Shown here: in pieces, positions 3,647 through 7,753 of the stretch | Layout: each line of letters starts with the position of its first letter | Numbering within the stretch: the stretch's first letter is position 1 | Assembly: GCA_017307915.1 (NCBI GenBank) | Contig: JAFKGG010000390.1 | Coordinates: 1-33,091, forward strand | Direction: 5' to 3' | Length of the DNA stretch: 33,091 nucleotides | Source of the DNA: Burkholderiales bacterium | GTDB lineage: Bacteria > Pseudomonadota > Gammaproteobacteria > Burkholderiales > Burkholderiaceae_E | Notes under the pieces: model-generated | What the model was told of the DNA's origin: nothing | Seen by the model: the letters and a program-made list of their open reading frames with translations, nothing else | The model's database searches: none | Program-made: the position numbers and the translations under genes

Positions 3647-5714
<2,068 letters not shown>

Positions 5715-5770
5715 GTGCGGCTTGCGCAGAGCCGGGCATGCTAAGGGCCGGCATGCGTGGGTAGGGTGCG

Positions 5771-6006
5771 GCGCGGCGGGCGGTGAGGGGTGGGCCGCGC
5801 TGACCGCGGCGGCCCACCCTGCGGGTGGGCTGCCCTGCGCTGCTCGCCTTGGGGCTGCGCGGCATGACTCGCTGCGCTCGCTTCGCGAGCTCCGCTCAAA
5901 CAGATGCCGCGAGTCAGAGGTACGAAGCGCGCTGCGCGCGCCAGCCCCAAGGCTGCGCTGCTCGGCGCCGCAGACAGCGCGGCCCACCCCTCACCGCCCG
6001 CCGCGC
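5771..6006. repeat. Nested palindromic element, copy 1 (core in + orientation)
   Basis: A 236-bp element bounded by a perfect 32-bp inverted repeat (5771-5802 with 5975-6006). Inside it are a perfect 12-bp stem (GCCTTGGGGCTG 5846-5857 with 5942-5953) and an apical 6-bp stem (GCTCGC 5876-5881, loop TTC, GCGAGC 5885-5890). A local hairpin GCCCACCC-TGC-GGGTGGGC lies at 5812-5830. The core 5859-5940 carries CTCAAACAGATGCCGCGAG and TACGAAGCGCGCTGCG and recurs on the other strand at 6308-6390. It sits between convergent operons. Possible roles are bidirectional terminator, REP/BIME-like element or structured RNA. Short open frames here are GC artefacts. Confidence 0.85.
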
Positions 6007-6239
6007 AACATGCTTGGGCTGCTATCGACGAAACACACGTTGATGGATCTCTCGTTGTTCATGTCAGCACCAATTGAACCGAGATATGCACGACACGAGC
6101 CGGTGGCACGAGTCCATGCGTTCACAGCACGAACCTAATTGATTGACTCGGTCAAGTATTCACCCAAGATTGCAATCAAACAAACCCATCACTTCAGCAC
6201 TCAGGCGATGGTGTATTCGTTGCAGTCTGCCACCGTATC
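6007..6239. other. Gene-free, AT-richer spacer between the two palindromic elements
   Basis: About 230 bp with visibly lower GC than the rest of the window, for example around 6136-6200. I find no convincing coding frame, ribosome binding site, tRNA or strong hairpin. It may carry a small RNA or promoter, or simply be neutral spacer. Confidence 0.5.
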
Positions 6240-6479
6240 GGCGAAGGCGTGGGCCCAAGGGGGGCGGCGGGGTATCTGCGCAGCCGAGGAGCACAGGTCT
6301 GATGGCCCGCGCGCAGCGCGCTTCGTATATTCTGACTCGCGGCATCTGTTTGAGCGCAGCGCCCGCAGGGCGCGGAGCGAGTCATGCCGCGGGGCCATCA
6401 GGCCGAGCACCGCAGGGCACCCCCGCGCAGCGGGGGCAAGCAGTTACCCCCCCGCCCCCCTTGGGCCCGCGCCTTCGCC
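6240..6479. repeat. Nested palindromic element, copy 2 (core in - orientation)
   Basis: A 240-bp element of the same architecture as copy 1 but inverted. Outer arms 6240-6278 and 6441-6479 pair over 39 positions with three non-Watson-Crick positions, one of them T-G. The middle stem is 6296-6308 with 6392-6404 (GGTCTGATGGCCC, one G-U). The apical stem is GCGCCC 6359-6364, loop GCA, GGGCGC 6368-6373. Core 6308-6390 is nearly identical to the reverse complement of copy 1, yet all three stems have different sequence in the two copies and still pair. The Rieske gene stop lies only 44 bp beyond. Confidence 0.85.
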
Positions 6480-6523
6480 CGCCCCACTGACCGCAAGAAC
6501 AACACCCGCCACACACCAAACTA

Positions 6524-7753
6524 TCAGCGCGAATCTTCCAAATAATTCCCAGCATCAAACACCACCGGCCCCTCATCCGGATTGAAACTCACCCCGGCCG
6601 GGTCCTCCCCGCGCTGCACCCGCTCGATCTGCCGCTGCATGTATCGGCGCAACATCACGATGCCGCGATCGGAGGTGGCCAAGTGCTCTTCCGAGTGCCA
6701 CGCGATCGCCCCCTGGCTGACCTGTGCTTCGTAATCACCCGGCAGCCGCTGATGTTCCTCTTCGGCCAGTTCTTCCCACAGCCGCCCGTTCAGGCGCGAG
6801 CGCATGCGCACCAGTTCGCCGGCTTCGCGCACGCGGCCGGCCACATAGATGCGAAAGCTGTGATCGTCGATCGGCAGGATCCAGCCTATGGATTCGACGC
6901 GGCCGAACTTGCCGATGCGCGGGCTCGGAATCACGCGCAAGGTGGGGGTCGCCGCCAGGCTGATGCGCCGGAACAGCTTGCCGTCGGGCAGCGTGCGGAT
7001 CGACGTGGTGCGTACGCCCAGCTCGAATGTGTCCCATTGCACGTCGGGCATCAAGGCCATCTGCTCGACGAACTGCGTGCCGCTGAAGGTCGCATGCAAG
7101 ACCACGACGTGGAACGGATCGACCAGGTTCTCGTAATGCTGGAACCAATTGCAGTCGATGATCTGCGGGCCACCGCCGCCGATGCTGGCATCGTTGGTTT
7201 CGATGAACTCGCCGTCGTCGAGTCGTTCCAGGGCATCGTAACGCGGCAGGATCGGTTTCTTATCGGGTGGGCCCATGTAGGCCCACAGCAAGCCGTAGCG
7301 TTCCTGTACCGGATACCAGGGCTGCCTGACCCGATGCTTCGAGCGTCCGCCGTCGGGTTCGCAGGGCTGCTCCACGCATTGGCCCTGCACGTCGAACAGC
7401 CAGCCGTGATAGCAGCAGCGGATGCCGCGTTCTTCCACCTTGCCGTAGTACAGCGAGGTGCCGCGGTGCGCACAGTGCGGATAGACCAGCCCCGGCCGGC
7501 CGGCCTTGTCGCGGAACAGGATCAGGTCTTCGCCCAGCACGCGCAGCTTGCGCGGCGTATCGCTGGCATCCGCGGTCAGACCGACCGGGTGCCAGTAGCG
7601 GCGTAGTAGTTCGCCCATCGGCGTGCCGGCGCCGACCTCGGTGAGCGCGGCATTGTAGCTGGGCCGTTTGCGCCCATAGGCGGTGCCGATGTCGATGGCG
7701 GCCGATCGGGTTTCGCCGGCTTGCAGCGTCGGATTCATCGCGGGCTCCGTCAT
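6524..7753 (-). CDS. Rieske [2Fe-2S] aromatic ring-hydroxylating oxygenase, alpha subunit
   Basis: 409 residues. The N-terminal Rieske domain has Cys94-X-His96 and Cys113-X2-His116 (PHCAHRGTS ... CCYHGW). The catalytic domain carries the mononuclear iron region NWFQHYENLVDPFHVVVLH at about residues 203-221. Length and motif spacing fit the phthalate 4,5-dioxygenase/VanA class, which uses a separate FMN reductase-ferredoxin; no such partner is visible here. The substrate is unknown, probably an aromatic acid hydroxylated or O/N-demethylated. Its ATG overlaps the stop of the Bug gene as ATGA (7750-7753), so the two are translationally coupled. Transcription would start upstream of the Bug gene, facing the LysR gene. 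Confidence 0.9.
   Translation of the reverse strand: MTEPAMNPTLQAGETRSAAIDIGTAYGRKRPSYNAALTEVGAGTPMGELLRRYWHPVGLTADASDTPRKLRVLGEDLILFRDKAGRPGLVYPHCAHRGTSLYYGKVEERGIRCCYHGWLFDVQGQCVEQPCEPDGGRSKHRVRQPWYPVQERYGLLWAYMGPPDKKPILPRYDALERLDDGEFIETNDASIGGGGPQIIDCNWFQHYENLVDPFHVVVLHATFSGTQFVEQMALMPDVQWDTFELGVRTTSIRTLPDGKLFRRISLAATPTLRVIPSPRIGKFGRVESIGWILPIDDHSFRIYVAGRVREAGELVRMRSRLNGRLWEELAEEEHQRLPGDYEAQVSQGAIAWHSEEHLATSDRGIVMLRRYMQRQIERVQRGEDPAGVSFNPDEGPVVFDAGNYLEDSR

Follow-up and report, generated by a model that had tools for sequence, protein, structure and literature searches.

A paired, inverted palindromic repeat of Burkholderiales with one-stranded constraint on folding, possibly a two-way transcription boundary

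We describe two large nested palindromes that lie back to back between convergent genes in a 33,091-nucleotide stretch of a Burkholderiales genome (the window), and that belong to a family of repeats. The variation in this family indicates that selection acts on one folded strand, which is most likely RNA. Quite possibly, these back-to-back units of structured RNA and C-rich tail act as a terminator or insulator, that is, as a two-way transcription boundary, and would do so by ending transcription. The first-pass annotation of the window had noted the two palindromes and the compensated changes in their stems; what is added here is the family, the strand, the conservation at individual loci, the gene context and the C-rich tails.

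Architecture of the element in the window

The complementarity of the stems bore out the positions at which the first-pass annotation had placed the two copies, arm A at 5771-6006 and arm B at 6240-6479. The outer stem of arm A pairs 5771-5811 with 5966-6006 (41 nt, 95% complementary) and that of arm B pairs 6240-6279 with 6440-6479 (40 nt, 93%), while the middle stems pair 5846-5857 with 5942-5953 (12 nt, 100%) and 6296-6308 with 6392-6404 (13 nt, 92%), respectively. Both arms form two further hairpins each. In each arm, an outer stem of about 40 bp surrounds a variable side hairpin and the middle stem, inside which lies a core with an apical and a GC hairpin. The side hairpin of arm A (5811-5831, minus strand; GGCCCACCC/GGGTGGGC with the loop TGC) has a variable sequence and was read from the sequence and the folds. 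The apical 6-bp hairpin of arm A (5876-5890, minus strand, GCTCGC/GCGAGC) was read from the sequence, the plus-strand fold and covariation (helix 6) and is absent from the minimum-energy fold of the minus strand; its counterpart in arm B (6359-6373, plus strand, GCGCCC/GGGCGC) was read from the sequence, the folds and covariation. The cores, which had been called nearly identical, share 88% identity over 81 nt in inverted orientation, and the stems indeed keep pairing though their sequences differ between the two arms. Covariance model R1 marked the conserved core at 5840-5966 on the minus strand in arm A (133.7 bits) and at 6283-6410 on the plus strand in arm B (118.1 bits), both arms being among the 49 sequences of the model.

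As judged from the family (below), the selected strand of arm A would be the minus strand, reading leftward, and that of arm B, the second, heterotypic and inverted arm, the plus strand, reading rightward, in both cases away from the spacer. Folded as RNA, the minus strand of arm A reached -195.4 kcal/mol (z -13.0) and the plus strand of arm B -177.9 kcal/mol (z -9.8), and in each case 0 of 200 shuffles was as good. The minimum-energy fold of arm A on its minus strand contains the outer, side and middle stems as described, with the inner core rearranged. The spacer between the arms (6007-6239, 233 bp) has 49% GC, against 66% for the window, and is only partially conserved among the copies in the same genome. 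An 18-nt motif, TCAAACAGATGCCGCGAG, occurs twice in the window with up to 3 mismatches, against 0.02 occurrences expected.

The left flanking gene, encoding an amidohydrolase (Amidohydro_2; 4722-5714, plus strand), ends 56 bp before arm A, and the right flanking gene, encoding a Rieske [2Fe-2S] domain (6524-7753, minus strand), is convergent with it. On the outward strands, a C-rich and G-poor tail follows arm B (6480-6525, plus strand; 22 C and 5 G in 46 nt) and a C-rich tail follows arm A (5715-5770, minus strand; 27 C and 13 G in 56 nt).

Distribution of the family and pairing of the arms

The 81-nt core gave 19 matches in its own genome, mostly as inverted pairs, and a longer query gave 21. 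Matches were present in 17 of 18 genomes of the genus (own genome counted) and in 25 of 74 genomes and 5 of 16 genera of the family, some of them weak. In the order, R1 matched 19 of 399 genomes and 12 of 158 genera, with filters that lose weak matches. As this patchy distribution shows, most lineages can dispense with the element. A pattern scan of named genomes was positive, with profile or model matches, for Pseudacidovorax, Hydrogenophaga, Rubrivivax, Aquincola, Pelomonas, Tepidimonas, Tepidicella, Xenophilus and a Ramlibacter MAG. One contig from a different family of the order (G273:C1) gave weak R1 matches of about 98 nt and 38-51 bits at 109204, 114900, 135848, 342488 and 2103855, four of the five on the same strand; these are perhaps a shorter related element. 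The pattern also matched eight loci outside Burkholderiales (L060, L061, L074, L079, L084, L110, L122 and L129), where the best model E-value of 0.32 was not significant; six of them gave weak profile matches (23-32 bits) and five come from Methylococcales, so that they may not be chance matches but copies of a different repeat that shares the motif.

The window had no match at or above the gathering threshold in Rfam release 15, in agreement with the earlier remark that no named family fits, and a permissive Rfam search of 5700-6550 returned six matches, all with E-values of at least 1.8. We recognised no description of the element in the open-access literature searched, a scope outside which most subscription papers fall.

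In 84 of 85 distinct neighbouring arm pairs of the first locus set, a core in plus orientation was followed by a core in minus orientation, and the single exception sits between two adjacent pairs. Further loci (L194, L195, L196, L198, L200, L201, L203, L204, L205 and L206) likewise contained back-to-back pairs, and a well-assembled relative (G016) has 39 arms, 30 of which form 15 pairs, all back to back. Same-direction neighbours were found at L196 and L199, and a + + - - cluster of arms at G013:C24; the starts of these same-direction neighbours (L196, L199 and the minus pair of G013:C24) are 0.3-1.5 kb apart. In the window's own genome, A-type and B-type arms are clearly distinct, and one of each was present in 7 of 7 pairs read, which are also the pairs that trained the A/B profiles. 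Among 26 further pairs of the genus, within which alone this typing is meaningful, 18 had one arm of each type, 6 look A-A and 2 were ambiguous.

Covariation and consensus structure

The first-pass annotation had seen selection on folding in the two copies, and this is borne out by 49 divergent arms, aligned on the strand found active (alignment A1). RNAalifold predicted 25 consensus pairs, 19 of which show, across genera, changes on both sides with pairing kept, and 92.3% of 1,215 cells of the consensus structure were paired. The covariation score was 0.459, compared with at most 0.110 in slid controls, and 0 of 500 shuffles did as well, on all five measures; these pairing statistics are favoured by the fact that the structure was derived from the same alignment. 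For instance, columns 91/148 are G-C in 36 arms, C-G in 12 and A-U in 1, and columns 105/138 are G-C in 42 arms and A-U in 7. Further copies thus exist, and they pair and co-vary, the opposite of the outcome that was to speak against a structured element.

When the 130-nt core was folded in isolation on the active strand, only 14 of the 49 arms had the consensus core stem in their minimum-energy fold, 22 had the H3 hairpin and 10 the apical hairpin. The core is highly self-complementary, so that other folds compete and the minimum-energy folds differ from the consensus; the predicted consensus core fold is supported by covariation, not by energy. The conserved core stretches, with the consensus CUGACU and UGUUUGAGC, are only partly paired. 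We also noticed a conserved complementarity, GACUCG/CGAGUU (A1 columns 83-88 and 138-143), which interleaves with the main core stem and could form a pseudoknot or a switch, the residues being too invariant for a covariation test. This pairing may be a reason for the difference between the minimum-energy and the consensus folds of the core.

The strand that folds

A G·T mismatch on one strand is an A·C mismatch on the other, and the ratio of the two therefore tells which strand must fold. Folds that exclude G·T pairs were computed for 205 distinct arms, and the single mismatches inside the stems were counted. The core-plus strand had 226 A·C, 44 G·T and 357 other mismatches, or 127 A·C to 40 G·T in distinct contexts (p = 9e-12, nominal since the arms are related), and folding of the opposite strand gave the mirror image (227 G·T to 58 A·C). 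Counted by contexts, A·C exceeded G·T in left arms (84 to 14) and right arms (67 to 27), in outer stems (84 to 25) and inner stems (40 to 9); in the zone between outer and inner stems the counts were 10 to 6, which was not significant. Since paired arms lie on opposite chromosome strands, a replication or gene-strand bias cannot cause the asymmetry. In both arms, the active strand is the one reading outward from the spacer.

These counts indicate that what is selected is the folding of one strand, most likely as RNA, and they bear on the earlier suggestion of a structured RNA or cruciform. The folding part of that suggestion stands; the cruciform is disfavoured by the 127 to 40 distinct contexts, because both strands fold in a cruciform and no asymmetry between G·T and A·C would arise. 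The G·T bias as such is compatible with RNA and with single-stranded DNA alike.

Conservation at orthologous loci

In Pseudacidovorax, as many as six assemblies have an element at the orthologous position, and some of these positions are common to Xenophilus and another Comamonadaceae strain. In six Pseudacidovorax groups of 2 to 5 sequences each, the arms are 92-99% identical and almost gap-free, the spacers are 54-90% identical with gaps in 4 of the 6 groups, and the 500-bp flanks, which are largely genes, are 84-97% identical. Among 928 Watson-Crick pairs in the six groups, we counted 20 double compensatory changes; read on the outward strand, single changes led to G·T in 32 cases, to A·C in 6 and to other mismatches in 21 (p = 2e-5), while the opposite strand in the same orthologues gave 3 G·T and 33 A·C. 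From these orthologues we infer that each copy is probably under selection where it stands.

An orthologous dppC/dppD-like gap in two Rubrivivax species (L088 2132-2380 and L144 3354-3602) keeps the opposite arm in each species, and the arm of one is accompanied by a remnant of the other's stem. This is an old pair that decayed in two ways.

Gene context

Genes were called with a home-made caller that uses GC at the third codon position. Of 77 elements, 59 were scored, 10 being dropped at a locus edge and 8 for a distant neighbour. The scored elements lie in 22 convergent, 33 tandem and 4 divergent contexts, compared with 8, 56 and 33, respectively, for 97 element-free gaps in the same loci (Fisher p = 1.5e-5 for the convergent excess and 7e-5 for the divergent deficit). 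The elements are thus enriched where two genes end towards each other and depleted at divergent promoters. A random-orientation result of an earlier gene caller, which we had first used against the terminator idea, was discarded, as that caller drew long spurious ORFs through the arms.

In tandem contexts, the 27 arms antisense to the genes had 36 G·T to 1 A·C and the 20 sense arms had 21 G·T to 3 A·C. As antisense arms are equally constrained, the arms do not serve the flanking mRNA alone, and the element must either affect antisense transcription as well or have a transcript of its own. Where a single arm lies between tandem genes, it was mostly antisense (L158, L174, L175, L088, L090, L094, L109 and L125, against L138 and L144; at 8 to 2, too few to claim a preference).

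Spacers can hold cargo genes. Between the two arms of L040 (603-1258, G049) there are two overlapping small ORFs, one RelE-like (below the Pfam cut-off) and one for an HTH protein, putatively resembling a type II toxin-antitoxin pair, and the 1.5-kb spacer of L139 (2010-3397, Hydrogenophaga intermedia S1) contains small ORFs including one for a DUF6678 protein.

C-rich tails outside the arms

On the outward strand, the mean (C-G)/(C+G) skew in the first 60 nt beyond the outer stem was 0.218, and it was positive in 91% of 111 arms; upstream of the arm it was 0.002 in 100 nt and 0.067 in the preceding 100 nt. On antisense sides of neighbouring genes the tail skew was 0.206 (n = 65) against -0.025 in the control (n = 37; p = 5.5e-11), and on sense sides 0.238 (n = 33) against 0.112 (n = 57; p = 0.0013), the latter control reflecting a moderate C-richness that the 5ʹ regions of ordinary genes have as well. 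For single arms (n = 14), the skew was 0.167 on the active flank against 0.038 on the opposite flank (Mann-Whitney p = 0.027). The p-values in these comparisons are nominal, as the arms are related. Between orthologues, the outer flanks are 77% identical in the first 30 nt and 46-52% identical at 30-120 nt, gaps counted. Rho loading sites are C-rich, G-poor and poorly conserved tracts, and by its composition alone the outward tail looks like such a site.

Possible function

A two-way boundary could work as follows. A polymerase coming from either side would first copy the near arm as its inactive strand, go on through the spacer and produce the active strand only at the far arm. There the RNA would fold into a large structure that pauses the polymerase or holds the new 3ʹ region; Rho would then load on the C-rich tail, and transcription would stop before the next gene is entered from behind, possibly leaving the arm as a trimmed and protected 3ʹ end. 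Such a stop would account for the inverted arrangement of the arms, for a spacer that is free to change, for the excess of convergent contexts and for the tails. An intrinsic terminator was considered and rejected for this locus, since a scan of 5700-6540 of the window returned 0 sites at which a U tract follows a GC-rich hairpin.

A terminator needs neither an elaborate core nor conserved stretches, so that this role alone leaves the core unexplained; the conserved core suggests that something binds there, for example RNA polymerase, Rho or a different protein. Among RNAs that act on RNA polymerase are HK022 put and inhibitory aptamers that favour Rho. The arms would resemble these as a conserved structured nascent RNA that could change elongation, and differ from them in size, pairing and distribution. 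A bolder proposal, which we hold to be rather doubtful, is that the arms would form an unrecognised class of bacterial non-coding RNA acting in cis as a two-way boundary: an RNA of 240 nt whose core touches RNA polymerase or Rho directly, placed in heterotypic pairs, back to back, next to tens of gene ends in each genome, with each copy selected.

Two alternatives also read the outward strand as RNA. The element could be a divergent pair of small RNA genes, with promoters in the spacer and two related structured RNAs acting in trans, as a multi-copy family. This would account for a constrained strand that points outward in each arm irrespective of the genes nearby, also where an arm is antisense to tandem genes, and it is consistent with the 74% identity of the first 30 nt inside the arms of orthologues and with the AT-rich spacer in the window. 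We consider it unlikely: the 30 nt directly outside the arms are no less conserved (77%), the spacer itself diverges with gaps in most groups, a search for one promoter type, sigma-70-like, found none at 5700-6540 of the window, spacer included, and free small RNA genes would not need such a strong preference for gene ends. REP elements, too, prefer the downstream side of genes, and a REP-like stabiliser of mRNA 3ʹ ends, whose fold blocks 3ʹ-5ʹ exonucleases without itself ending transcription, would agree with the downstream position, with the very stable fold and with an active strand that is the far end of any crossing transcript. The equal constraint on arms antisense to tandem genes and the C-rich tail, which it leaves unexplained, make this reading distinctly improbable.

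It is rather improbable, in our view, that the arms are the ends of a mobile element, recognised as hairpins in single-stranded DNA of the REPIN, IS200/IS605 or attC kind, and that the spacer carries its cargo. The copies are many, patchily distributed and have inverted heterotypic ends, some spacers carry genes (the RelE-like and HTH ORFs of L040 and the DUF6678 ORF of L139), and single-stranded DNA would produce the same G·T bias; against this, the copies are stable at orthologous Pseudacidovorax loci and each is constrained, and the plasmid and phage collections gave no match to the element. Nor do the distributions of candidate enzymes follow that of the arms. The Y1 transposase (PF01797) was found in 3 of 18 genomes of the genus (2 over the cut-off) and the TnpB-like domain (PF07282) in 5 of 74 genomes of the family (4 over the cut-off), neither of them in G000, the window's own genome, or in G016; the reverse transcriptase (PF00078) was found in 17 of 74 genomes of the family, including 4 of 18 of the genus (G003, G005, G011 and G016), and was absent from G000. 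RAYT, TnpB and reverse transcriptase partners were rejected for this lack of co-occurrence, which likewise leaves TnpB/omega-RNA systems and retron, DGR or group II intron RNAs without support as classes for the arms. An autonomous transposon was rejected as well: none of five ORFs scanned in the long spacers of L139 and L040 encodes a transposase, and the two arms of G203, 1.7 kb apart, flank an ordinary LysR gene. Finally, in the absence of any selection, template-switch repair at replication could keep palindromes perfect and of itself produce compensatory changes, and double changes are common between orthologues too (20). Such repair is blind to the strand, yet the mismatches are strongly one-sided; at one U·G pair, every one of the 49 arms has either U·G or C-G, and the arms are conserved beside diverging spacers. 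We give this explanation almost no credence. The two-way boundary is the reading that we prefer.

Comparison with known repeats

The closest known kinds are REP/BIME-type repeats and, by host range, BRE. REP/BIME and REPIN repeats are palindromes tagged with GTAG and CGTC (PMC3733652), and the arms are like them in being dispersed, intergenic, palindromic and often paired. The arms are far larger, with 236 and 240 nt and several hairpins instead of 20-40 bp; moreover, the Y1 transposase is absent in most genomes of the genus, and the constraint here is one-stranded and acts locus by locus. BRE is an intergenic repeat of about 90 bp, in direct tandem and variable number, of Betaproteobacteria including Comamonadaceae and Bordetella, with one copy in the region of the small transcripts bprJ1/bprJ2 in Bordetella pertussis (PMC3110155). 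Our element is likewise a repeated intergenic element with an overlapping host range; BRE units follow each other directly with few or no bases between them, whereas 84 of 85 neighbouring pairs here are inverted and the arms have 240 nt. In comparison with Rho-dependent terminators, a C-rich, G-poor tail on the active strand is present, as far as composition goes; the differences are the large conserved RNA fold that precedes the tail and the back-to-back arrangement of two units.

Several Burkholderiales genomes thus carry up to tens of these large elements, unnamed in Rfam or in the literature searched. If they are transcription boundaries, they would show how some GC-rich genomes separate convergent and antisense transcription by means of RNA, and they could provide compact two-way insulators for synthetic biology. 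The count of G·T against A·C is a simple test of the working strand for any repeated palindrome, and it separates single-strand function from cruciforms and repair.

Assembly and variation among copies

Repeats of this kind are expected to break short-read assembly, and the copy numbers are therefore lower bounds. In G000, contigs C59, C45, C292, C348 and C358 break off a few hundred bases or less from an arm. One arm of this genome (L010 1482-1609, G000:C348) is A-type in its left half and B-type in its right, and this hybrid may be due either to an inversion between the two cores or to misassembly at the contig end. In the Pseudacidovorax loci L081, L119 and L080, the spacers contain other repeats, namely palindromes of the TTCGACAAGCTCAG type and microsatellite-like runs.
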